The notes below the pieces were generated by a model. That model did not search any database. It was not told the origin of the DNA and saw nothing but the letters and a program-made list of their open reading frames with translations. Source: Paenibacillus sp. BIHB 4019 (GTDB lineage: Bacteria; Bacillota; Bacilli; Paenibacillales; Paenibacillaceae). Taken from it: DNA of 64,000 nt. Below, piece after piece: positions 35,190-49,182 of the stretch. A program made the translations under genes and the position numbers. Where the stretch lies: contig NZ_CP016808.1 of the NCBI RefSeq assembly GCF_002741035.1, forward strand, positions 3,162,001 to 3,226,000. The letters are read 5' to 3'. How positions within the stretch are numbered: the stretch's first letter is position 1; each line of letters begins with the position of its first letter.

Positions 35190-35380
35190 CTTCAACATCC
35201 TTTCAGCTATGACGAGCAAGAATATTATATAATTCCTACCTGTTTACTAAGTATTATAGTACGAAATGTAATATAGCACTCGTCTTTCGTTCCTGTCAAT
35301 TATAAATTTGGCAAAAAAGAGGGAAACCGCTTACTTGCGGCTCCCCTCCTCAAATTGTTATTATGCTTAGTTTTCTTTGC

Positions 35381-35722
35381 GAAACGGAAGCTTTGCCGCC
35401 AGAGGAGGCGCACGCCGTTTACGCTTGAAATATAGGAAAGGATATGAATTTTGCATCCCTTCTCTATATTTCTCCGCGAAACGAAAGCTTTGCCGCCAGA
35501 GTATGGCAACAGCCGTTTACGCTTGAAATATAGGAAAGGATATGATATTTCCATCCCTTCTCTATATTTCTCCGCGAAACGGAAGCTTTGCCGCCAGAGG
35601 ATGGCGACAGCCGTTTACGCTTGAAATATAGGAAAGGATATGAATTTTGCATCCCTTCTCTATATTTCTCCGCGAAACGGAAGCTTTGCCGCCAGAGGAT
35701 AGCGACAGCCGTTTACGCTTGC
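35381..35722 (+). repeat. Tandem array of the two-hairpin dispersed repeat
   Basis: Units begin with GAAACGGAAGC at 35381, 35478, 35576 and 35674, a 97-98 bp period. Each has hairpin 1 (AAACGG...GCCGCCA / TGGCGAC...CCGTTT) and, between units, hairpin 2 (AAATATAGGAAAGGAT / ATCCCTTCTCTATATTT). Four copies of hairpin 1 and three of hairpin 2 are present. The last unit runs into the final codons of the AraC gene and supplies its stop codon. Single copies occur at 4945 and 36817. Confidence 0.85.
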
Positions 35723-36594
35723 TCCGCTGGCGTTGCTTTTTTATAGGCCGCAGGCGTTTGTCCGGTTACTTTTTTGAACATGCGGTGAAAATGGGGCAGG
35801 CTCTCGAAGCCGCAGGCGTCGGCAATGAGCCGAATGTTCTCGTCGCTTGCCAGCAGCAGCTCCTTGGCGCGAATAATGCGCTTCGCCGTCACATAGTCGG
35901 TGACATTCATGCCGGTGAGCTGCTTAAATACGCGGGAAAAATGGGCTGGCGTGACCGCCGCCATTTGCGCCAATACGGACAAGCCGAGCGGGACATCGGG
36001 ATGCTCATCAATATAGTGGAGAATGTTCCGCATCCATAACGGGCCAATCAGCGGGCCATCCGCCTTGGCATATTCGCGGCTGCTTGCAATAATCCGGCGG
36101 TTCATCAGCAGCAAAATATGCTCCAGCTGCAGCAATATCGCCTGCCGATAGCCGGGCTGCTGCTCGCGCTGCTCCAGCTCAAGCTCATCAATGAGCTGCA
36201 CCAGCTTAAGCTGCTCCTGCGTTGTCGGCTCAAATTTGTAGCGTTTATGTTTTTTGGCATGGTCGAAGCAGCGCAAATACGAGAAGGTATCTCCGAATGA
36301 CGCCGTCTGGACAAATAAGGTGCTGAAAAAAATCGCCGTCGACGTCACCGGCTCCTCCTTGTCGGGAAACGAGCGATGTATCGTATTGCCCGGAATAATG
36401 AACAAATCGCCGGGCTTCATATCGTAAAAGGTTTGGTCAATAAAAAAAGTGCCTTTGCCCTCATAAATATAGACAAGCTCATACCAGTCATGCAGATGAT
36501 CGGGCAGCTCCGTCTGCCAATGCTTGCGGTCACGGTAGACGAAATCGAAGGGAAATGAGCTGCCAACCTCGAACGGCTTGCGAAACGGCTTCAT
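35713..36594 (-). CDS. AraC-family regulator with N-terminal cupin
   Basis: About 293 residues from ATG 36594, where AAGGAGGAG lies 9 nt upstream. The N-terminal half is a cupin sensor (HLHDWYELVYIYEGKGTFFIDQ in part, LFIIPGNTIHRSF). The C-terminal 100 residues hold two helix-turn-helix motifs (LSVLAQMAAVTPAHFSRVFK, IRLIADACGFESLPHFHRMFKK in part). It is divergent from the five-gene sugar operon at 36922 and is its probable activator, responding to L-galactose or a related sugar (inference). Its last codons overlap the end of the repeat array. Confidence 0.88.
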   Translation of the reverse strand: MKPFRKPFEVGSSFPFDFVYRDRKHWQTELPDHLHDWYELVYIYEGKGTFFIDQTFYDMKPGDLFIIPGNTIHRSFPDKEEPVTSTAIFFSTLFVQTASFGDTFSYLRCFDHAKKHKRYKFEPTTQEQLKLVQLIDELELEQREQQPGYRQAILLQLEHILLLMNRRIIASSREYAKADGPLIGPLWMRNILHYIDEHPDVPLGLSVLAQMAAVTPAHFSRVFKQLTGMNVTDYVTAKRIIRAKELLLASDENIRLIADACGFESLPHFHRMFKKVTGQTPAAYKKATPAEQA

Positions 36595-36787
36595 ACGCGA
36601 ACGGCTCCTCCTTGCGCCAGCATGGGCTAAGCGCGCAATGTTTCTATAGTCCAGCATAGCAAAAATCAAAATACAGTACAAATATGCAGGAATACGTTAT
36701 TTTTAATATCATTATTGGCATTTATAATGAGATCAAAGGGATAGATAGCAGCGGGCGCAGGTTTTTGTTTTAGAGCAGCTGCTGCTA

Positions 36788-36801
36788 TGAAAACGTTAAC
36801 A
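36788..36801 (+). promoter_or_regulatory. cre site (CcpA) upstream of the L-galactose operon
   Basis: TGAAAACGTTAACA matches the CcpA consensus TGWAANCGNTNWCA at every position. It lies 121 bp before the lactonase gene, in the divergent region, and suggests catabolite repression of the operon. Confidence 0.7.
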
Positions 36802-36816
36802 ATTATATGTTCATTT

Positions 36817-36889
36817 AAAAATATAGGAAAGTATATGATTTTGCTATCCTTTCTCTATATTTCTCGGACTGAAAGCCGTTTCACCTTGT
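36817..36889 (+). repeat. Single copy of the dispersed hairpin repeat in the operon leader
   Basis: AAAATATAGGAAAGTATATG pairs with ATCCTTTCTCTATATTT, followed by a shortened GAAAGCCGTTTCACC block. It lies between the cre site and the first gene of the operon, so it may be transcribed as part of the leader. Confidence 0.65.
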
Positions 36890-36921: not shown

Positions 36922-37752
36922 ATGAGGATTGATGCGCATCAGCATTATTGGGCAATTGAGCGGGGCGATTACGGCTGGATTACACCAGAGGTACCTGTGC
37001 TTTATCGCGATTTCGGACCAGAGCATTTGCAGGCAAGCCTGAATCGGCATGGCATTAGCTATACGATCGCAGTGCAAGCCGCTCCAACGCTGGCTGAGAC
37101 CGATTATTTACTCGCGTTGAGCGACCGCACGGAGTCGATTGCGGGAGTTGTCGGTTATCTCGACCTGTTCGATCCCGAGCATCTAAGCCATTTCGAACAT
37201 TTTGAACGTCATCAGCGGTTCGTGGGGTTCCGCGTGATGATTCAAGAGCTGCAGGATGCGGGTGTGATTTTGCAACAGACGTTTGTTGAGGCGCTGAAGG
37301 AGTATGAGCAGCGGGATACGCCGATTGATCTGCTCCTCACCTCGCATCAGCTCGATTCGCTCGTTCAGCTTATGAAGCAGGTGCCGAATTTGCGCGGTGT
37401 TATCGATCATTTGGCGAAGCCGCGGATTGCGGCGGGCGAGCTTGAGCCTTGGCGCAGCCAGCTGACGGAGCTGGCACGTTATCCGAAGCTGTATTGCAAG
37501 CTGTCGGGAATGGTCACAGAGGCAAGCCACGAGAGCTGGCGGCCGGAGCATTTTATCGCCTATATTCGCCATGTGCTGGAGGTTTTTGGCCCGGACCGGG
37601 TCATGTTCGGCAGTGATTGGCCGGTGTGCCTGCTGGCGGCGGGCTATGATGAAGTTGTGGATGTGCTGGAGCAGGCGCTGCCAGCCTCTTGGGGAGATGC
37701 GGAGCGCAGCAAGCTGTTCGGACTAAATGCAAAGGAGTTTTATAAACTATGA
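36922..37752 (+). CDS. COG3618 amidohydrolase, probable L-galactono/L-fuconolactonase
   Basis: 276 residues of the metal-dependent sugar-lactonase group. Metal and catalytic residues are visible as DAHQHYW at the N-terminus, VIDHLAKP in the middle and MFGSDWPVC near the C-terminus, with CKLSGMVTEA. Such enzymes open 1,4- or 1,5-lactones of L-fuconate, L-galactonate or L-rhamnonate. The neighbours (L-galactose dehydrogenase-like AKR and L-galactonate dehydrogenase-like ADH) favour L-galactonolactone. First gene of the operon, GGGGGC site before ATG 36922, overlaps uxaB by ATGA. Confidence 0.85.
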   Translation: MRIDAHQHYWAIERGDYGWITPEVPVLYRDFGPEHLQASLNRHGISYTIAVQAAPTLAETDYLLALSDRTESIAGVVGYLDLFDPEHLSHFEHFERHQRFVGFRVMIQELQDAGVILQQTFVEALKEYEQRDTPIDLLLTSHQLDSLVQLMKQVPNLRGVIDHLAKPRIAAGELEPWRSQLTELARYPKLYCKLSGMVTEASHESWRPEHFIAYIRHVLEVFGPDRVMFGSDWPVCLLAAGYDEVVDVLEQALPASWGDAERSKLFGLNAKEFYKL

Positions 37753-39263
37753 GCCAGTTAAATAAGTCGCTTCTGGGACAGGAAGACCGCGAACGGTACG
37801 AGGCGGTTCAAGCAGGGAAAATAACGGTGCTGCAAATCGGCGAAGGCAACTTTTTGCGCGGCTTTGCCGATTGGATGCTGCAGGAATGCCATAAGCAGGG
37901 GCTGTTCAGCGGTGGAGTCGCGGTGACGCAGCCGCGTCCGGGCGGCAAGCCGAAAATTGACGCTTTGGCCAAGCAGGACGGCCTTTATACGCTGGTCATT
38001 CGCGGATTGGAAAATGGCGCGGCTGTCCAGCGCAAGGAAGTCGTCACCGTATTTGCGAAAGCATTCGATCCTTATTCGGAGTGGGAAGCGCTGGTGCAGC
38101 TTGCGGAAAGCAAGGATTTGCGTTTCGTCGTTTCCAACACGACAGAAGCTGGACTTGCCTACAGGCCGGAGCCGCTGCAGGAAGGCCAGCCGGTTCAGTC
38201 TTACCCGGGCAAGCTTGCTTATTTGCTGTATCGCCGTTTTCTCGCCTTCGAAGGCGCTGCGGACAGCGGCTTGATCTGCCTGCCTTGCGAGCTGCTGGAG
38301 CGCAATGGCGACGAGCTGAAAGCTTGCGTCCTGCGCTATAGCGAGGATTGGGGCTTTCCGCAGGCGTTCAAGGAATGGGTGGAGCAGGACAATCGCTTCT
38401 TGAACTCGCTTGTAGACCGAATCGTGACGGGCTATCCTGATGAGCAGCAGGCGCAGCAATGGTTTGAGGAGTGGGGCTATGAGGACCCGATGCTGACGAC
38501 AGCGGAGCCGTACCATTTTTGGGCGATTGAAGCGGAGCCGGAGCTGGATGAGCAGCTGCCGCTGCGCCGGGCAGGACTGAACGTGCATTTTGTAGAGGAT
38601 TTAAAGCCGTTTCAGCTGCGGAAGGTACGGATACTGAATGGCGCTCACACGCTGATGACGCCGCTTGCGCTCGTCCATGGTCTGGAGCAGGTGCGCGAGG
38701 TGATGGAGCATGCGGAGTTTGGCCCCTACGTTCGCGATGCAGTCGAACAAGAGATCATTCCTGCGCTGCCGCTGCCCGAGGGCGAGCTTAAGGATTATGC
38801 CGCTGCGGTGTATGAGCGGTTTCTCAATCCGTTCATTCGCCACCGGCTTGCCGATATTGCGATGAACAGCATTAGCAAGTTCAAGGTCAGGCTGCTGCCA
38901 TCGCTGCTGGATTATGCAGATCGCGGTCAGCCAGTGCCAGCACGCCTGGTGCGCGCTTTTGCCGGATTGCTGCGCTACTATAAAGTAGAGAGCGATGGAT
39001 CAGGCGCATACACAGGTACGGATTTGCTCGGCACCGTCTATACGGTGCGCGACGATGCAGGAGCACTAGCGGCGCTTGCAGCGGCGTGGGCTTCGGAAGG
39101 AACGGCTCAAGGTGCAGAAGCAGCGGCGGGCTCGGCACAAGCGCAAGCAGAGCGGCTGCTGGCCCTGAGCGAGCTATGGGGACGCGACTTGCAGGCAGTG
39201 CCAGGCTTGGCGGAAGCGGTAGCTTCACAATTAGAGGAACTGGAGCGTGGTGCGCATGAATAA
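37749..39263 (+). CDS. uxaB: Tagaturonate reductase (altronate oxidoreductase)
   Basis: 504 residues of the mannitol dehydrogenase family. It reduces D-tagaturonate to D-altronate with NADH. IGEGNFLRGFADWML at the N-terminus, VSNTTEAGL, the FLNSLVDRIVTGYP block, and KVRILNGAHTLMTPLALVHG are characteristic of UxaB. The C-terminal part has an Ala-rich insertion of about 25 residues (GTAQGAEAAAGSAQAQAE) not usual for the family. It starts in an ATGA overlap with the lactonase and overlaps uxaA by 8 bp, so translation is coupled. Confidence 0.92.
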   Translation: MSQLNKSLLGQEDRERYEAVQAGKITVLQIGEGNFLRGFADWMLQECHKQGLFSGGVAVTQPRPGGKPKIDALAKQDGLYTLVIRGLENGAAVQRKEVVTVFAKAFDPYSEWEALVQLAESKDLRFVVSNTTEAGLAYRPEPLQEGQPVQSYPGKLAYLLYRRFLAFEGAADSGLICLPCELLERNGDELKACVLRYSEDWGFPQAFKEWVEQDNRFLNSLVDRIVTGYPDEQQAQQWFEEWGYEDPMLTTAEPYHFWAIEAEPELDEQLPLRRAGLNVHFVEDLKPFQLRKVRILNGAHTLMTPLALVHGLEQVREVMEHAEFGPYVRDAVEQEIIPALPLPEGELKDYAAAVYERFLNPFIRHRLADIAMNSISKFKVRLLPSLLDYADRGQPVPARLVRAFAGLLRYYKVESDGSGAYTGTDLLGTVYTVRDDAGALAALAAAWASEGTAQGAEAAAGSAQAQAERLLALSELWGRDLQAVPGLAEAVASQLEELERGAHE

Positions 39264-40770
39264 CTGGGTTCGGCTTAATGAGAAGGATCAGGTCGTTATT
39301 GCGCTTACGCCGCTTTCCCAAGGGGATAAGCTGGCACTTGAAAATGGCAGGGAGCTGGAACTGCTCGAAGACGTGCCGAAAGGGCATAAAATCGCCTCTA
39401 CTCCAATTCCGCAGGATGCACATGTACTCAAGTTTGGTTATTCCATCGGCATCGCCAAGTCGGATATTCCAGCAGGCAGCTGGGTGCATACGCATAATAT
39501 TGGAACCGGACTGAAAGGCTTTCTGGAATATTCGTATGATCCGGCAAAAGGCCGCGAGGAATCGGCAGCGCCAGCTGCGAGCTCGGCGAATCGTGCGAAC
39601 CAGACGTTTCAAGGCTATGTGCGGGATGGCGGCGAGGTCGGCATTCGCAATGAGATCTGGATTATTAATACGGTCGGCTGCATTAACAAAACCTGTGAAA
39701 TCGTAGCGCGGCGGGCTGATGCGATGTATGCGGGGCGCGTCGATGGCGTTTATCATTTTGCCCATCCGTTTGGCTGCTCGCAGCTTGGCGATGATCTGCA
39801 GCACACGCAGAAGCTGCTTGCTTCGCTTGTGAATCATCCGAATGCGGCAGGCGTGCTCGTAATGGGGCTCGGCTGTGAAAATAACCAGATCGACCTGTTT
39901 AAGCAGGCGATTGGCGACTACAATCCGGAGCGCGTCAAGTTTATTAAATCGCAGGAGGTTGAAGATGAGCTGGAGGCTGCGCTTGAGGAAATCGACGCTC
40001 TCGTCGAATTCGCAGAGCGCTTCAAGCGGGAGCCGGTGCCGGTCGCGAAGCTCAAGCTGGGGCTCAAATGCGGCGGCTCAGACGGCTTGTCCGGCATTAC
40101 GGCGAACCCGCTTGTCGGAACGGTATCCGATCGCTTGATTGAAGCGGGCGGAACGGCGATTTTGACCGAGGTGCCGGAAATGTTTGGTGCGGAAACGATA
40201 TTAATGAATCGCGCAGACAATGAACAGGTATTTGGTAAAATCGTCCATTTAATTAACGACTTCAAGCAATATTTTATCCGTCATGATCAGGAAATTTATG
40301 AAAACCCTTCGCCGGGCAACAAGGCTGGCGGCATCAGTACGCTGGAGGAGAAGTCGCTTGGCTGTACGCAAAAGGGCGGTCACGCGCTGGTCAAGGACGT
40401 TGTGCCTTACGGCGAGCGGATTTCGCATACAGGCTTGAATTTGCTTGAAGCGCCGGGCAATGATCTCGTATCGGTAACGGCTTTGTCTGCGGGCGGCGCG
40501 CATATCGTTCTGTTTACGACAGGTCGGGGAACGCCGTTCGGCGGCCCGGTTCCGACAGTGAAGATTGCAACGAACAGCGAGCTGGCGGGACGCAAAAAGA
40601 ACTGGATCGATTTCAACGCAGGACAGCTGCTCGAAGGCAAGACGATGAATGAGCTGACCGATGAGCTGTGGGATCAGCTGCTGGCGCTCGCTTCAGGCGA
40701 AGCGAAGACGAATAATGAACGCAATGGCTTTAAGGAAATTGCGATTTTCAAAGACGGCGTTATTTTGTAA
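39256..40770 (+). CDS. uxaA: Altronate dehydratase
   Basis: About 504 residues from ATG 39256; an upstream GTG is less likely. It converts D-altronate to 2-keto-3-deoxygluconate. The N-terminal SAF domain (about 1-95) has VHTHNIGTGL. The C-terminal dehydratase part shows GYVRDGGEVGIRNEIW, HPFGCSQLGDD, GLGCENNQ, KCGGSDGLSGITANP and GRGTPFGGPVPT, with cysteines that bind the metal centre. Both parts are fused, as in E. coli UxaA. Third gene of the operon. Confidence 0.93.
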   Translation: MNNWVRLNEKDQVVIALTPLSQGDKLALENGRELELLEDVPKGHKIASTPIPQDAHVLKFGYSIGIAKSDIPAGSWVHTHNIGTGLKGFLEYSYDPAKGREESAAPAASSANRANQTFQGYVRDGGEVGIRNEIWIINTVGCINKTCEIVARRADAMYAGRVDGVYHFAHPFGCSQLGDDLQHTQKLLASLVNHPNAAGVLVMGLGCENNQIDLFKQAIGDYNPERVKFIKSQEVEDELEAALEEIDALVEFAERFKREPVPVAKLKLGLKCGGSDGLSGITANPLVGTVSDRLIEAGGTAILTEVPEMFGAETILMNRADNEQVFGKIVHLINDFKQYFIRHDQEIYENPSPGNKAGGISTLEEKSLGCTQKGGHALVKDVVPYGERISHTGLNLLEAPGNDLVSVTALSAGGAHIVLFTTGRGTPFGGPVPTVKIATNSELAGRKKNWIDFNAGQLLEGKTMNELTDELWDQLLALASGEAKTNNERNGFKEIAIFKDGVIL

Positions 40771-40784
40771 TCGGAGGGAAAACG

Positions 40785-41750
40785 ATGAAATATCGCAAAT
40801 TAGGCAAAACCGGACTGGATGTATCAGTACTCAGCTTCGGCGCATCTTCCCTCGGTTCCGTATTCCGGGAGACGAATGAGGAAGAGGCGATTCGTACCGT
40901 TCACAGCGCTTTGGATGCGGGCATCAACTATATCGACGTTTCGCCGTATTACGGACTGACGAAGGCGGAGACGGTGCTCGGCAAGGCGATTAAGGAGCTG
41001 CCGCGAGACCAGTTTCTGCTCTCGACTAAAGCAGGCCGATACGGCGTGGACAGCTTCGATTTTTCCGAAAGCCGGATTATTAGCTCTCTTGAAGAAAGCT
41101 TGCAGCGGCTCAATACGGACTACGTAGATTTTATGTTCCTTCACGATATTGAGTTTGTTTCGCCTGAGCATGCGGCACAGGGCATTCCGGCGCTGCAAAA
41201 GCTCAAGGAGCAGGGCAAAATCCGCCACTACGGCATTTCCGGCTTGCCGCTGCAGCTATTCGAGAAATGGCTGCCGCATACGGAAGTCGATGTCATTTTA
41301 TCCTATTGCCATTATTCATTAAATGATACATCGCTGCTTGGCCTGCTGCCGCTCATTGAGCAGCATAATGTCGGCTTGGTTAGCGCATCACCGTTGTCGA
41401 TGGGTCTGCTTGGCACAAGAGGCACGCCTGATTGGCATCCGGCGAGCGCCGGGCTGAAGGCCGCCTGTCTGCGTGCTGCCGAGCATTGTGCAGCGCAAGG
41501 TACCGATATTGCGAAGCTGGCGATGCAGTTTGCAGTAGCGAATGAGCAAATTCCGACGACGCTGGTCAGTACAGCGAATCCAGAAAATATCCGCCGCAAC
41601 GCGGCATGGATAGAGGAGCCTATGGACGAGAGGCTGCTTAAGGAAGTGCTTGAATTGCTGGCGCCCGTTGCCAATGAAAGCTGGATCAGCGGCTTGCCGG
41701 AATATAATGAGCAAATCAGCGGCGGAGCCAGGCAAAGGAGCGCAACATGA
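40785..41750 (+). CDS. Aldo/keto reductase, L-galactose dehydrogenase-like
   Basis: 321 residues. The wording follows plant L-galactose dehydrogenase closely as I recall it: FGASSLGSVF, DVSPYYG, GRYGVDSFDFS, FLHDIEF, IPALQKLKEQGK, GISGLPLQLF, VDVILSYCHYSLND, SASPLSMGLL, DWHPAS. Catalytic Tyr (SPYYG), Lys (STKAGRYG) and His (FLHDIEF) are present. It would oxidise L-galactose to the 1,4-lactone with NAD(P)+, supplying the lactonase in the same operon. GGAGGG lies before ATG 40785. L-fucose is a possible alternative substrate. Confidence 0.88.
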   Translation: MKYRKLGKTGLDVSVLSFGASSLGSVFRETNEEEAIRTVHSALDAGINYIDVSPYYGLTKAETVLGKAIKELPRDQFLLSTKAGRYGVDSFDFSESRIISSLEESLQRLNTDYVDFMFLHDIEFVSPEHAAQGIPALQKLKEQGKIRHYGISGLPLQLFEKWLPHTEVDVILSYCHYSLNDTSLLGLLPLIEQHNVGLVSASPLSMGLLGTRGTPDWHPASAGLKAACLRAAEHCAAQGTDIAKLAMQFAVANEQIPTTLVSTANPENIRRNAAWIEEPMDERLLKEVLELLAPVANESWISGLPEYNEQISGGARQRSAT

Positions 41751-42796
41751 TGAAAGCGATTGTGTGCGAGCAGCCGGACAGCCTCAAGCTGACGGAGCAG
41801 GAGCAGCCTGCTTTTGGCGGCGGCAGCGGTGAAGATACATTCGCGGCTGGCCCAGAGGATGCTATTATTCGCATTCGCCGCATTGGCATTTGCGGGACAG
41901 ATATGCATGCCTACAAAGGCAATCAGCCTTTCTTTCAATATCCTCGTGTTCTCGGACATGAGCTGGCGGCTATTGTAGAAGAGGTTGGCGAAAATGTAGC
42001 CGGACTTGTGCCAGGCGATCAAGTCAGTGTCATTCCGTATATGCACTGCGGTACTTGCATCGCATGCAGGCGCGGCAAAACAAATTGCTGCACCGCCATG
42101 CAGGTGCTGGGCGTACATCGGGACGGCGGCATGCGCGAGCTTATTGCGGTTCCCGCTACCCATCTGATTAAGACGGATGGCTTGACGCTGGACGCGGCGG
42201 CGATGCTGGAGCCGCTTAGCATCGGCGCCCATGCTGTGCGCCGTGCGGAGCTGGAAGCGGGCGAGACTGTGCTCGTCATCGGAGCAGGGCCGATCGGCCT
42301 TGGCGTCATGGCGTTTGCCAAGCACCGGGGAGCGCGTGTTATTGCGATGGATATTAATGAGGAGCGGCTTGCTTTTTGCAAGGATTGGGCTGGTGTGGAT
42401 GAAACGGTTCATGCCTTGCAGCAGCCGAAAGAGCGGATCGCTGAGCTGACAGAGGGAGAATATCCAACCGTCGTATTTGACGCAACGGGCAATGCCCGTT
42501 CGATGACGGATGCCTTCGGCCTGACAGCGCATGGCGGCAAGCTGGTCTATGTTGGACTCGTGAAGGCGGATATTGCCTTTCATGATCCCGAGTTTCACAA
42601 ACGCGAGCTGACGCTGATGGGAAGCCGCAATGCAACGCGTGAGGATTTCGATATCGTCATTGAAGCGGTATCCAGCGGCAGCGTTAACGTAGACCGATTA
42701 ATTACGCATCGCTCGTCCTTTGAAGGCATGCTTGATGTATTCGACGAGTGGCTGAAGCCGGAGTCGAAGGTCATTAAAGCGGTAGTCGAACTGTAA
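41747..42796 (+). CDS. Zinc alcohol dehydrogenase, L-galactonate 5-dehydrogenase-like
   Basis: 349 residues of the medium-chain family. Catalytic zinc ligands lie in GICGTDMHAYKG and LGHE. The structural zinc cysteines are in CGTCIACRRGKTNC, and the cofactor loop is VIGAGPIGLGVMAF with Asp in AMDINEERL (NAD). The wording matches LgoD/YjjN-type enzymes that oxidise L-galactonate at C5 to D-tagaturonate, the substrate of the UxaB encoded two genes upstream. It starts in an ATGA overlap with the AKR, with AAAGGAG in place. Last gene of the operon. Confidence 0.87.
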   Translation: MMKAIVCEQPDSLKLTEQEQPAFGGGSGEDTFAAGPEDAIIRIRRIGICGTDMHAYKGNQPFFQYPRVLGHELAAIVEEVGENVAGLVPGDQVSVIPYMHCGTCIACRRGKTNCCTAMQVLGVHRDGGMRELIAVPATHLIKTDGLTLDAAAMLEPLSIGAHAVRRAELEAGETVLVIGAGPIGLGVMAFAKHRGARVIAMDINEERLAFCKDWAGVDETVHALQQPKERIAELTEGEYPTVVFDATGNARSMTDAFGLTAHGGKLVYVGLVKADIAFHDPEFHKRELTLMGSRNATREDFDIVIEAVSSGSVNVDRLITHRSSFEGMLDVFDEWLKPESKVIKAVVEL

Positions 42797-42909: not shown

Positions 42910-42939
42910 GAAGGGAGAGCTGCGGCTCTTCTTTTTTTA
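42910..42939 (+). terminator. Terminator after the L-galactose operon
   Basis: GAAGGGAGAGC and GCTCTTCTTTT form a short hairpin around TGCG followed by a T-run, about 115 bp after the stop of the zinc alcohol dehydrogenase gene. Confidence 0.5.
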
Positions 42940-44235: not shown

Positions 44236-44291
44236 TTGACTTTAAGTAAAAATCATAATAGAATTTTACTCAGGCAATGCAAGCGTTTTCA
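44236..44291 (+). promoter_or_regulatory. Promoter and cre/LacI-type operator of the sugar ABC operon
   Basis: TTGACT (44236-44241) and TAGAAT (44259-44264) have a 17-nt spacer. Downstream, TGCAAGCGTTTTCA at 44278-44291 fits the CcpA/LacI-type consensus in all but one position. It lies just past the expected transcription start, a position for roadblock repression by CcpA or by the LacI regulator encoded at 48175. Confidence 0.7.
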
Positions 44292-44389: not shown

Positions 44390-45715
44390 ATGAACAAATC
44401 TTTCAAATCAGTTATCACTTTACTGCTGTTAACGGTCGTGCTGGCAGCATGCGGCAGCAATAACAGCGGAACAGGTACTACAAGCAATGCAAGTCCTGAA
44501 AGCGCTAACAACGGAGAGAAAGTGAAATTGACGGCTTGGGCTTGGAACGTAAACGTTGGTGCGTTAAATGAAGCGATTACGGCTTATCAGCAGGATCATC
44601 CGAATGTAGCGCTAGAGGTTCAAGACATTGGGCGCCTTGATGTATATGACAAACTGTCCACGGGTCTAGCTGCAGGCGGCGCTGGCCTCCCTGATATCGT
44701 GCTTGTGGAGGATGACAGGCTGCAAGGATATCTCGACGCTTTCCCTAAGGGCTTCGTGAACCTTTCGGAGAAAGGCTTTGATGCCAAGCTTTCCGAGTTT
44801 CCGACGTTCAAACAAGAGCTGACGAAAAAAGATGGCGTAAGCTATGCCTTTCCTTTCGATGCAGGCCCAACTGGCGTATTCTACCGCACGGATTTGTTTG
44901 AGCAAGCAGGCGTTGATGCTTCCAAGATTGAGACTTGGGATGACTACCTCGCAGCAGGCAAGCTGATTAAAGAAAAAACAGGTGCGCAGCTGTTCCCTGT
45001 AGATAAATTTAAAGATGATGCAACGCTTCGTATTATGCTCAATGAGCAAGGCGCGTTCTACTTTGACAAAGATGGCAAAATCGACTTTAACAACCCGAAA
45101 TACGTGAAAGCGCTGGAAACATTGAAAAAATTCGATGAGGCTGGCCTAATCAAAGACGTTAACGGCTGGGATGGCACCGTTTCTGCAACGGTTGACGGCA
45201 CGATCGCTTCCATTGCATTTGGCGCATGGTACACAGGCACAATTACTGACCAAGCGAAGGATTTGAGCGGCAAATGGGGCGTATTCCAAGTTCCGGCCTT
45301 TGAAAAAGGGGGCAACCGCGCAGCTAACCTTGGCGGCAGCAGTTGGGCTTTGACTTCCACAAGCAAAAATGTAGATGCCGCTTTCAGCTTCATGGAATAT
45401 TTTTCAACATCGCCAGACGTTCAAAAAGTAGCTATGGAAAAATACGGCTTGTTCCCATCGCTGACGAGCGTTTATAACGAAGATATTTTTACAACGGGCG
45501 TTGAGTTTTTCAGCAATCAAAACATCTGGATGCTGTTCGCGCAAGAAATGAATGCGGTACCGACACCTTACTACACGAAAGATTATTCCGTTGCTCTTGA
45601 TGAATCGGTGAAAGCACAATCCGACGTATTCAACGGCAAAGCTGCGGCTGATGCATTGAAGGAAGCGGCAGCACGCCTGAAGGACCGCACAAGCCGCGAA
45701 GTAAACGGCGGTTAA
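44390..45715 (+). CDS. Sugar ABC transporter substrate-binding lipoprotein
   Basis: 441 residues. The signal peptide ends at the lipobox VLAACG (Cys about residue 22), followed by a Ser/Asn/Thr-rich linker. The rest is a CUT1-type solute-binding fold (LTAWAWNVNVGALNEAIT, FPFDAGPTGVFYRTDLF, IAFGAWYTGTI, NLGGSSWALTSTSKN). GAGGGGG lies before ATG 44390. It delivers a sugar or oligosaccharide to the permeases encoded after a 550-bp gap. The sugar cannot be determined. Confidence 0.9.
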   Translation: MNKSFKSVITLLLLTVVLAACGSNNSGTGTTSNASPESANNGEKVKLTAWAWNVNVGALNEAITAYQQDHPNVALEVQDIGRLDVYDKLSTGLAAGGAGLPDIVLVEDDRLQGYLDAFPKGFVNLSEKGFDAKLSEFPTFKQELTKKDGVSYAFPFDAGPTGVFYRTDLFEQAGVDASKIETWDDYLAAGKLIKEKTGAQLFPVDKFKDDATLRIMLNEQGAFYFDKDGKIDFNNPKYVKALETLKKFDEAGLIKDVNGWDGTVSATVDGTIASIAFGAWYTGTITDQAKDLSGKWGVFQVPAFEKGGNRAANLGGSSWALTSTSKNVDAAFSFMEYFSTSPDVQKVAMEKYGLFPSLTSVYNEDIFTTGVEFFSNQNIWMLFAQEMNAVPTPYYTKDYSVALDESVKAQSDVFNGKAAADALKEAAARLKDRTSREVNGG

Positions 45716-45801
45716 TTGATCCTCGGCTCCTAGCCTGTTGTATAACCAGGTTTAACCAACCTGCATATGAAGAACCGAATAAGCGAAAAAAGCAGTCCGA
45801 T

Positions 45802-45835
45802 AAGAGATCCAGCGCTTACGCCTGGATCTCTTGTT
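45802..45835 (+). terminator. Hairpin after the binding-protein gene
   Basis: AAGAGATCCAG pairs perfectly with CTGGATCTCTT over a 9-nt loop and is followed by a T/C-rich stretch. In ABC operons such a hairpin often terminates most transcripts and protects the 3' end of the binding-protein mRNA, which would keep that protein in excess over the permeases. Confidence 0.65.
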
Positions 45836-45837
45836 CC

Positions 45838-45900
45838 CTTCTGCTCTTCTGCTCTTCTGCCCTTCTGCTCTTCTGCTCTTCTGCCCTTCTGCTCTATGCT
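45838..45900 (+). repeat. 9-bp tandem repeat (CTTCTGCTC)n
   Basis: About seven 9-bp units of the CTTCTGCTC / CTTCTGCCC type, fading into CTTGTGCTCTTGTTCTC and similar pyrimidine-rich copies up to about 45990. An open frame crosses it (LPFCSSAL pattern), but there is no ribosome site. Confidence 0.75.
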
Positions 45901-46020
45901 CTTGTGCTCTTGTTCTCGTATGCTCTTGTTCTCGTATGTTCTTGTTCTCTTATGTTTTTATTCCCTTATGTCTTTATCTCTTTATGTCCTTATTTACTTA
46001 ATCTTTTGTATTAAAAATTG

Positions 46021-46048
46021 AAAAAACAGGAGGTTATCCCCTGTTTTT
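46021..46048 (+). terminator. Second hairpin in the binding-protein/permease gap
   Basis: AAAAACAGG pairs with CCTGTTTTT around AGGTTATCC. The T-run on the right makes it a plausible terminator for readthrough from the binding-protein gene. Confidence 0.6.
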
Positions 46049-46068
46049 CAACGGCCTATAAAAATGAA

Positions 46069-46237
46069 ATCTACGGTGAAAGTCGGAGCGGAGTGAAAAG
46101 CTTGAGCTGGAGAAGCGGCAGCGTTCGCTTTTACCCTTGAATTTCCCTCTTGGGGAAACAAATTCGAAGAAATTCAAGGGTAATGGCGATCGGAAGCCAA
46201 GCTTTTCACGCAGCGCAGACTCTTTCTCACCGTAGAT
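46069..46237. repeat. 169-bp nested inverted repeat
   Basis: Three arm pairs are arranged symmetrically: ATCTACGGTGA (46069) with TCACCGTAGAT (46227), GTGAAAAGCTTG (46093) with CAAGCTTTTCAC (46198), and TACCCTTGAATTTC (46132) with GAAATTCAAGGGTA (46169). Arm lengths are 11, 12 and 14 bp, all perfect. It would fold into a long cruciform or RNA hairpin with bulges. It looks like a MITE- or REP-like element placed inside the transporter operon. Confidence 0.75.
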
Positions 46238-46268
46238 TCATAAATCCAACTTAGAAAGAAGGGTGAAT

Positions 46269-47117
46269 ATGAGAACAAAAGCGTTTGTTCCGTATTTGTT
46301 TCTTACCCCGGCACTCGTGCTATTCGCCATATTTATGGGCTATCCAATCCTTTATTCGCTGACGCTGAGCTTCCAGACCAGCCAAGGCGGAGAACTCGTA
46401 TTCACTGGTCTCGACAATTACGCTAAGCTGTTCAGCGATAAAATATTTGGCAAAGCGTTGTTAAACACGTTTATTATTTTGATCATCCAAGTGCCGCTCA
46501 TGCTGTTCGCTTCCTTGCTGCTCGCGACGCTGCTGAATTCCCTTAAGCGCTTTAAGGCGCTGTTCAGAGTCGCTTTTTTCATGCCGGCTGTAACGTCGCT
46601 CATTGCGGCATCGATTATTTTTTCAATTATGTTAATGAATGACGGGATTTTGAATCAGCTGCTCGGGGCAGTGGGCATTGATCCGATACCGTGGCTGTCC
46701 CATCCTGTATGGGCGAAAGTATCGCTTATTATCGCGATGACCTGGAGATGGACGGGTTACAATATGGTCATTTATTTGGCCGGCTTGCAAAACGTATCGG
46801 AATCTCTCTATGAAGCGGCAAGCATCGACGGGGCAACCCGCGTCCGCCAATTTTTCAACATTACGATTCCGCAGCTGAAGCCGATCATATTGTTCACGGC
46901 GATTTTGTCCACGATTGGTACGCTGCAATTGTTCGAGGAGCCTTATACGTTGACCAAGGGCGGTCCAAGCGATGCGACGATTACGATCGGCATGTATTTG
47001 TACCAGACGGGCTTCCGCTATTTCAACTTCGGTTATGCTTCAACGCTAGCGTATGTCATCGTTATTTTGATCGGCATTCTCAGCTACATTCAATTTAAAG
47101 TAACGGGGGATGAGTAA
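46269..47117 (+). CDS. Sugar ABC transporter permease, MalF-type
   Basis: About 282 residues from ATG 46269 (AAGAAGGGTG site; a GTG two codons earlier is possible). Six membrane helices, beginning VPYLFLTPALVLFAIF. The coupling motif EAASIDGATRVRQFFNITIPQLKP contacts the ATPase subunit. No ABC ATPase gene is present here, so the transporter probably uses a shared MsmX/MsmK-type ATPase encoded elsewhere. It is directly followed by its partner permease. Confidence 0.92.
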   Translation: MRTKAFVPYLFLTPALVLFAIFMGYPILYSLTLSFQTSQGGELVFTGLDNYAKLFSDKIFGKALLNTFIILIIQVPLMLFASLLLATLLNSLKRFKALFRVAFFMPAVTSLIAASIIFSIMLMNDGILNQLLGAVGIDPIPWLSHPVWAKVSLIIAMTWRWTGYNMVIYLAGLQNVSESLYEAASIDGATRVRQFFNITIPQLKPIILFTAILSTIGTLQLFEEPYTLTKGGPSDATITIGMYLYQTGFRYFNFGYASTLAYVIVILIGILSYIQFKVTGDE

Positions 47118-47942
47118 ATGGTAGCCAAACGTGTACGCGTCTCTATAACAACTCTGATTTTGCTAATTGGCTCCTTTATCTCCCTATTCCCTTTCTATTG
47201 GGCGATTATTGGAGGAACGAACGAGAGCGGTAAAATTTTCGCCAAACCGCCTGTGCTCCTGCCAGGAAACCACTTGTTCGAAAACATCCGGAATTTGAAT
47301 GATTCCATCGGCATTGGCCGGGTGATGTTCAATTCCTTGTTTGTTACAATCGTTTATACGGTGCTGGCGCTTATCGTCTCGACGATGGCGGGATACGTGT
47401 TCGCGAAGTTTAATTTTAAAGGAAAAACGCTCATTTTCGGCGTATTTCTGCTGTCGATGATGATTCCTTACCATGCTATTGTCATTCCAGTGTTTAAAAT
47501 GATGGCGGCCTGGGGCTGGCTGGGTACCTATAAGGCCTTGATTTTGCCCAACATTGCTTATCCATTCGCGATTTTCCTCATGCGCCAGAACATGATGGCC
47601 GTGCCTAACGCCATGATGGAAGCGGGGCGGATTGACGGCGTAAGCGAGTGGGGATTGTTTACTAAAATTATTTTGCCATCCTCCAAGCCTGCGCTTGCGG
47701 CGACCGCTATTTATTTGTTCATGTACCAGTGGAACAACTTCCTCTGGCCGCTCATTTCCGCGACTTCAGAGGATATGTATACGATGCCTGTCGCGCTGTC
47801 GAGCATGTTCGGCTTATCGCGCATTGATTACGGCCAAGTTATGGCGGGGGTTACGCTTGCGACCTTCCCGATTATTCTTTTTTTCCTTCTGCTGCAAAAA
47901 TATTTCATTCAAGGGATGCTCGGAAGCTCCGTCAAGGAATAA
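47118..47942 (+). CDS. Sugar ABC transporter permease, MalG-type
   Basis: 274 residues with six membrane helices. The N-terminal LILLIGSFISLFPFYWAIIG and the EAA loop (MMEAGRIDGVSEWGLFTKIILPSSKPAL) are typical of the second CUT1 permease. The ATG immediately follows the TAA of the MalF-type gene, so translation is coupled. It pairs with the 46269 product to form the membrane channel. Confidence 0.92.
   Translation: MVAKRVRVSITTLILLIGSFISLFPFYWAIIGGTNESGKIFAKPPVLLPGNHLFENIRNLNDSIGIGRVMFNSLFVTIVYTVLALIVSTMAGYVFAKFNFKGKTLIFGVFLLSMMIPYHAIVIPVFKMMAAWGWLGTYKALILPNIAYPFAIFLMRQNMMAVPNAMMEAGRIDGVSEWGLFTKIILPSSKPALAATAIYLFMYQWNNFLWPLISATSEDMYTMPVALSSMFGLSRIDYGQVMAGVTLATFPIILFFLLLQKYFIQGMLGSSVKE

Positions 47943-48120: not shown

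Positions 48121-49182
<1,062 letters not shown>

Follow-up and report, generated by a model that had tools for sequence, protein, structure and literature searches.

Which sugar is degraded through the five-gene operon found in Paenibacillus sp. BIHB 4019, and how is the operon controlled? The genes lie within a stretch of 64,000 nucleotides (C1:3162001-3226000 of a 7.25-Mb single-contig genome), here called the window, where five open frames on the forward strand (36922-42796) encode a lactonase, UxaB, UxaA, an aldo-keto reductase (AKR) and an alcohol dehydrogenase (ADH), in this order. An earlier note, based on the letters of the window alone, proposed that the five products convert L-galactose, a rare plant and algal sugar, into 2-keto-3-deoxygluconate (KDG). 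To judge from sequence comparison, this is very probably an L-galactose catabolic operon, and the proposed pathway is supported as the best explanation of the locus. From gene content, gene order, sequence relationships, conservation and a shared motif we infer its substrates, its direction, the ligand and mode of action of its regulator, and the source of the sugar. The features of the locus are the following.

35713..36594, minus strand: AraC-family regulator, divergent (a longer TTG start at 36681 stands in the list of open reading frames); in the genus, its relatives are transcribed divergently from AKR operons and from uxaBA pairs that stand alone.
36663..36682, plus strand: proposed operator AAATCAAAATACAGTACAAA, a weaker match to a 20-bp motif found across the genus (consensus ATATCAAAATAGAGTATAAA); motif score 16.5.
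36787..36802, plus strand: cre-like site ATGAAAACGTTAACAA, present in the window and its three nearest genomes only.
36922..37752, plus strand: COG3618-type amidohydrolase, proposed L-galactono-lactonase (Pfam family; alignment to 4dlf).
37749..39263, plus strand: UxaB, tagaturonate reductase (NCBIfam; sole copy in the genome).
39256..40770, plus strand: UxaA, altronate dehydratase (Pfam; identity to the E. coli enzyme; sole copy in the genome).
40785..41750, plus strand: AKR, proposed L-galactose 1-dehydrogenase (PDB relatives; tree; D51, Y56, K82, H120).
41747..42796, plus strand: LgoD-like Zn-dependent dehydrogenase, proposed L-galactonate 5-dehydrogenase (family match; identity to E. coli LgoD).
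42910..42935, plus strand: possible intrinsic terminator 3' of the operon (stem; weak).

All five frames were confirmed at the positions where the earlier note had placed them, and so was the tight coupling that it had read from their overlaps. ATGA overlaps join the lactonase to UxaB (37749-37752) and the AKR to the ADH (41747-41750), UxaB and UxaA share 8 bp (ATG at 39256, UxaB stop ending at 39263), and a gap of 14 bp separates UxaA from the AKR, whose start is preceded by GGAGG. The terminator-like stem after the ADH is weak evidence, since the scan returned 7 such sites versus 7.3 in shuffled sequence.

The AKR (Pfam match of 180 bits) finds its top five PDB relatives at 287-353 bits, all of them named L-galactose dehydrogenase, and the next one at 125 bits. 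Its identity to these five chains is 48-55%, versus 32.8% to a Rhizobium protein annotated as pyridoxal 4-dehydrogenase and 31.1% to a Sinorhizobium AKR; this clear gap in identity argues for the likeness to L-galactose dehydrogenase that the earlier note had put forward. Residues D51, Y56, K82 and H120, presumably the catalytic tetrad of the family, are all present. Among named records the nearest protein is that of Paenibacillus algorifonticola (97% identical), and the second-best match in the same genome reaches 36% over residues 1-211, so that the genome has a single AKR of this group. The phylogeny suggested as a check gave a mixed answer: in a tree of 28 rows the AKR grouped with plant and bacterial L-galactose dehydrogenase members, and the same tree, which contains no proven L-fucose dehydrogenase, does not by itself prove a separate clade (11 of its 25 branches are open and several deep ones weak). 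For LguA, a described member of this AKR cluster, kcat/Km is 40-fold higher for L-galactose than for L-glucose and activity on L-fucose was not detected; the cluster includes Bacillota sequences (PMC12632266).

As for the other four enzymes, the family assignments made earlier were borne out. The lactonase belongs to Pfam Amidohydro_2 (162 bits) and aligns over its full length (residues 1-275) with 4dlf, a PDB entry named only 'Amidohydrolase 2', which we take to be an L-fucono-lactonase structure; HQH and GSDWPV are common to both. UxaB passes the NCBIfam cut-off for tagaturonate reductase (579 vs 359) and is 41.9% identical to the E. coli enzyme, and UxaA matches Pfam GD_AH_C with 343 bits and shares 52.5% identity with the altronate dehydratase of E. 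coli. The ADH is a member of the Zn-ADH family and over 348 aa shares 41.7% identity with E. coli LgoD. The ADH is thus predicted to be of the L-galactonate 5-dehydrogenase type, and UxaB and UxaA of the tagaturonate reductase and altronate dehydratase types.

On these assignments, the AKR would oxidize L-galactose to L-galactono-lactone, which the lactonase would open to L-galactonate; the LgoD-like enzyme would oxidize L-galactonate at C5 to D-tagaturonate, UxaB would reduce the latter to D-altronate, and UxaA would dehydrate D-altronate to KDG. KDG would leave the route through kinase and aldolase genes located elsewhere in the genome, where two KDPG-aldolase-family genes (PF01081, over the cut-off) and three candidates for the kinase, distantly related to E. 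coli KdgK (27-32% identity), were found. All of these candidates lie outside the window, in agreement with the earlier observation that it contains no KDG kinase or aldolase.

The conservation of the operon was followed in 51 genomes of the genus, with thresholds of E up to 1e-60 for the AKR and up to 1e-50 for UxaB. The AKR is present in 43 genomes, UxaB in 40 (a single match each) and UxaC in 45. UxaB accompanies the AKR in 40 of the 43 AKR-bearing genomes and occurs in none of the eight lacking it (Fisher p 2.6e-7, relatedness not corrected). When all 42 other AKR loci were compared (L009 repeats L066), 23 showed the order of the window, divergent AraC-lactonase-UxaB-UxaA-AKR-ADH, so that the five-gene order occurs in 24 of the 43 AKR-bearing genomes. 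Ten other loci read AraC-lactonase-AKR-ADH and seven AraC-AKR-ADH-lactonase, the lactonase of the latter being only 38-39% identical; in the remaining two, one has AKR-ADH with the lactonase apart and one AKR-lactonase. The set of G014 falls into two parts, AraC|UxaB-UxaA-ADH and AKR-lactonase. UxaB lies in the operon in 24 of its 40 genomes, directly behind uxaC, together with uxaA, in 7, alone in 8 and in a decayed second copy in one (G045). This last copy belongs to a broken second five-gene operon (L158, C65, 6048-9490), in which a full-length lactonase match is followed by pieces of UxaB, UxaA and AKR. In a UxaB tree whose bootstrap had not settled, the 24 operon copies and that of G014 form one group (87/94, below the 95/80 mark) and the seven uxaC-linked copies a separate one (100/99).

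The divergent AraC gene announced by the earlier note is real, and its likely start is the ATG at 36594 rather than the TTG at 36681, because the alignments of L010-L018 begin at AraC residues 24-30. Divergent AraC genes, 47-57% identical to that of the window, adjoin seven of the eight lone uxaBA loci; those beside uxaC are 28-30% identical. In a FastTree phylogeny rooted on the uxaC-side AraCs (no support values were read), the seven lone-uxaBA AraCs nest within those of the AKR operons. Furthermore, a Gibbs search of 37 intergenic stretches, thinned from 45 (L065-L067 had already been dropped as near-copies), returned a 20-bp motif of 16.5 bits, versus 9.3-9.7 in six shuffled sets. A position weight matrix retrained solely on 26 AKR intergenics scored 7.9-27.3 in all seven lone-uxaBA intergenics; six of these scores exceed 8.5, the 99th percentile of shuffled sequence (95th, 5.2). 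This hold-out is not fully independent, since the starting consensus drew on a set with these seven. The eighth lone uxaBA pair (L152), which has no AraC, carries a site of 21.2 at 164 bp before UxaB, and the motif is thus found at 8/8 of these loci; eight UxaC-locus controls scored 4.1 or less.

Among 11 held-out AKR intergenics other than that of the window, the matrix-negative ones being at least mostly cut short on the araC side, the matrix gave no site in 10, and a scan of the whole loci recovered one in all 10. At 41 of 42 AKR loci, including 15 of 16 untrained ones, the best site is under 300 bp upstream of a pathway gene (operon or lactonase) and on the strand of that gene; L106 has no site near its AKR. 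In the window, the site at 36663-36682 is the best in 64 kb (16.5; 8.5-16.3 in 10 shuffled windows), and it is a weaker match, missed by the pattern used to scan the genus. With up to one mismatch, this related pattern gave 99 matches versus 40 for the reversed control. The 34 perfect matches in the 51 genomes comprise 26 before AKR operons, one before uxaBA-ADH (G014), one before an unlinked lactonase (G043), two before GH95 genes (G039, G045) and four elsewhere. In G045 the preceding frame runs into the GH95 site; the GH95 gene of G039, a genome without UxaB, is followed by ABC-transporter-like genes (read from the sequence, with no family search). Chance can produce strong scores in coding DNA, as indicated by pattern matches within coding frames: the two of the present genome (L244, L251) and two orthologues of the L244 site (L245, L246). 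A site of 22.2 near the best KdgK-like gene (L204) was likewise attributed to chance because it lies inside another coding frame, and KDG kinase was rejected as a regulon member. As a side observation, a second strong site (18.9) occurs at L099 14632-14651, in a genome with the AraC-AKR-ADH-lactonase order.

Taken together, the shared AraC branch and the 20-bp motif outline a putative L-galactose regulon, in which the site at 36663-36682 is the proposed operator, on which the divergent AraC protein probably acts to switch the operon on. The control by a 'perfect' catabolite-responsive element (cre) that had been proposed fared less well. The site exists at 36787-36802, where it may add catabolite repression in the species group of the window; it is confined to this four-genome group, and the genus is marked instead by the 20-bp motif. 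The cre as main control was accordingly ruled out. In the window the cre pattern has three matches (0.51 expected; 3 of 100 shuffles reached three), two of which fall on a single palindromic site at 44277. A 47-nt hairpin occurs once in the stretch from the cre-like site to the lactonase start (36819-36865); two near relatives have this copy and a third (L067) lacks it, as if it had been inserted. The same hairpin is part of three 98-bp tandem repeats downstream of araC (35372-35721). Neither the hairpin nor the repeat was found in 12 other stretches of the same genome that were checked.

Several observations weigh against the assignment of the operon to L-galactose. The lactonase is matched best by the NCBIfam model of L-fucono-1,5-lactonase, where its score of 233 stays below the cut-off of 400, and UxaA reaches 280 against NCBIfam galactarate dehydratase, below 731; as both fall under curated cut-offs, their exact substrates are not fixed. 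Two distant AKRs, from Rhizobium and Sinorhizobium, stand inside the L-galactose dehydrogenase group on a very long branch, so that, given the weak deep branches, the tree alone is no proof of a separate clade. The cre-like site is common only to the window and its three nearest genomes (4 of 41 intergenic stretches; the window and 3 of 40 when the stretches were extended towards araC). The five-gene operon contains no sugar transporter or hydrolase. Downstream of it, sugar ABC genes (44390-47942: a binding protein and two permease-like genes) have the palindromic cre-like site upstream (44277) and a LacI-type gene downstream (48175-49182); the AKR-operon motif was not found at these genes, which therefore probably belong to another regulon. 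Three of the 43 AKR-bearing genomes lack UxaB (G001, G039 and G044, the last 63% complete). Finally, UxaC is present in all 40 UxaB-bearing genomes, about as good a co-occurrence as that of the AKR. Co-occurrence alone does not exclude galacturonate, and it was dropped as proof of L-galactose use.

This last point bears on the possibility that the operon is mainly a D-galacturonate system, in which a distant UxaC would feed tagaturonate to UxaB and UxaA, and the AKR, lactonase and ADH would be side activities. The genome indeed has a single uxaC, outside the window at C1:4137022 and behind a GFO/IDH oxidoreductase gene, and no second uxaB (next best match 28%) or uxaA (no further UxaA-domain match); the uxaBA pairs directly behind uxaC in seven genomes also fit. 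However, uxaC is absent from the five-gene operon, unlike in uxaCBA-type galacturonate operons, and is found at a great distance from it, next to another AraC (30% identical) and with no copy of the motif, whereas lone uxaBA pairs have an AKR-type AraC at 7/8 loci and the motif at 8/8. Moreover, G016 and G021 possess UxaC but neither AKR nor UxaB, and three of the five genes have no established role in galacturonate use, all of which makes this explanation quite unlikely. A milder form, compatible with L-galactose as the substrate, is that uxaBA of the operon serve both sugars, growth on galacturonate then coming under an L-galactose-controlled operon. Single-copy uxaBA and uxaC at separate loci agree with such sharing; UxaC could instead serve glucuronate via fructuronate, and we regard shared use as a realistic but doubtful possibility.

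The source of the sugar is suggested by GH95 genes, which are present in 10 of the 42 AKR loci, none of them with the five-gene order. In P. cellulositrophicus, AraC-amidohydrolase-AKR-ADH is followed by a regulator, ABC genes and GH95. GH95 enzymes are described as releasing L-fucose or L-galactose (PMC4491172, PMC10063614). GH95 beside the AKR loci thus points to one of these two sugars, and UxaA, UxaB and the LgoD-type ADH then favour L-galactose, which GH95 action on plant cell-wall L-galactosides may supply. In a Thr/His comparison, the position proposed to mark L-galactose activity is Thr in 10/10 operon-linked GH95 proteins and also in all 40 background loci examined, hand-picked from the matches listed (L179 is the gene of the linked L101); a fucosidase with Thr has been published as well (PMC8245568).

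The GH95 genes, being shared between fucosidases and L-galactosidases, could also accompany a non-phosphorylated pathway for L-fucose, to which the name of the best lactonase model, below its cut-off, would also lend itself. The source names of the 120 AKR relatives listed include a single D-threo-aldose 1-dehydrogenase and a single L-fuco-beta-pyranose dehydrogenase, next to several L-galactose dehydrogenases. Nevertheless, fucose has no 6-OH, which the UxaB and UxaA steps and the phosphorylation of KDG require, and no L-fuconate dehydratase is found among the five products (the rest of the genome was not searched for one). With LguA of the same AKR group showing no activity on L-fucose (PMC12632266), L-fucose is very unlikely to be the substrate.

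With L-galactose as the sugar, a wider scheme may be sketched, tentatively and with considerable doubt about the whole: in Bacillota one AraC branch and one 20-bp operator would join release by GH95, oxidation by AKR, lactonase and ADH, and uxaBA, and the latter would have entered an L-galactose operon once, thereby placing galacturonate use under L-galactose control. With this operon, a large genus of soil Bacillota would join Bacteroidota and Verrucomicrobiota as carriers of the route. An operon, a regulator and an operator would be at hand as named targets for studying how soil bacteria use plant cell-wall L-galactose, and L-galactose and L-galactonate dehydrogenases might be obtained from it.

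Among the closest known systems is lguABCDEF from Luteolibacter sp. LG18 (Verrucomicrobiota), studied through enzyme assays and gene disruptions (PMC12632266, 2025). The lgu cluster and the window share an AKR dehydrogenase (in LG18 for L-galactose and L-glucose), altronate dehydratase, tagaturonate reductase, L-galactonate/L-gluconate dehydrogenase and a divergent AraC-type gene (in LG18 an activator annotated Btr). They differ in the KDPG aldolase and fructokinase inside the LG18 cluster and in the lactonase, a word absent from the main text of PMC12632266. Matched to lgu by enzyme type, the window genes would account for the route from L-galactose as far as KDG. The same AKR group, the divergent AraC-type regulator and the uxaAB-type enzymes could suggest a dual L-glucose/L-galactose pathway as in LG18 (PMC12632266). 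L-glucose, however, would require the C-4 epimerase LguG and is presumed to be absent from nature (PMC12632266), which leaves a dual pathway unlikely. When the LG18 authors looked for orthologs of the lgu genes, no organism turned up with the set minus lguG (PMC12632266); the present loci are candidate L-galactose gene sets of the kind they sought.

A comparable route in gut Bacteroides had been mentioned in the earlier note, and it is indeed documented: PMC12632266 cites for Phocaeicola vulgatus an L-galactose route (BVU_0219, BVU_0222; Hobbs et al. 2014) which, like the window, has an AKR dehydrogenase and an L-galactonate dehydrogenase leading to tagaturonate. A plasmid cluster of Bacteroides finegoldii carries LacI, an AKR (50% identical to that of the window), an amidohydrolase, FucP and an ADH (34%) and, unlike the window, has no uxaAB annotated in 14.5 kb. 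We take this cluster to represent the P. vulgatus arrangement; the P. vulgatus pathway reportedly includes a COG3618 lactonase. The E. coli L-galactonate route (lgoTRD with uxaB and uxaA) shares the LgoD, UxaB and UxaA types with the window (42%, 42% and 52% identity) but begins at L-galactonate, with scattered genes and neither AKR nor lactonase beside lgoD. A plasmid cluster of Catenovulum adriaticum, known from annotation only, has a Zn-ADH (49%), an amidohydrolase (38%), an AKR (53%) and an altronate dehydratase (51%), and within about 9 kb a mannitol-dehydrogenase-family gene only 24% identical to UxaB of the window; unlike in the window, its altronate dehydratase is on the other strand, a GH2 gene lies inside, sulfatase genes lie beside it, and no AraC is annotated in the stretch.

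Two further plasmid loci may be added as side observations. The AKR cluster of Acidisarcina polymorpha (L210) has FucP, an ADH and a tagaturonate epimerase family gene, with no uxaAB annotated in the stretch, and on pSymB of Sinorhizobium meliloti (L212, 3409-10854) a distant AKR stands beside an altronate dehydratase family gene, an ABC transporter and a Zn-ADH, possibly a parallel sugar route.

The grouping of these enzymes thus recurs in the genus and, differently arranged, in other phyla. The route itself is not new, being known from bacteria of the gut and the soil in other phyla (P. vulgatus, Luteolibacter); for Bacillota, no paper on L-galactose catabolism was found in a search outside of which most subscription papers lay. 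The operon of the window is a further instance of this known route in a new lineage, distinguished by a gene order and a regulator motif of its own.

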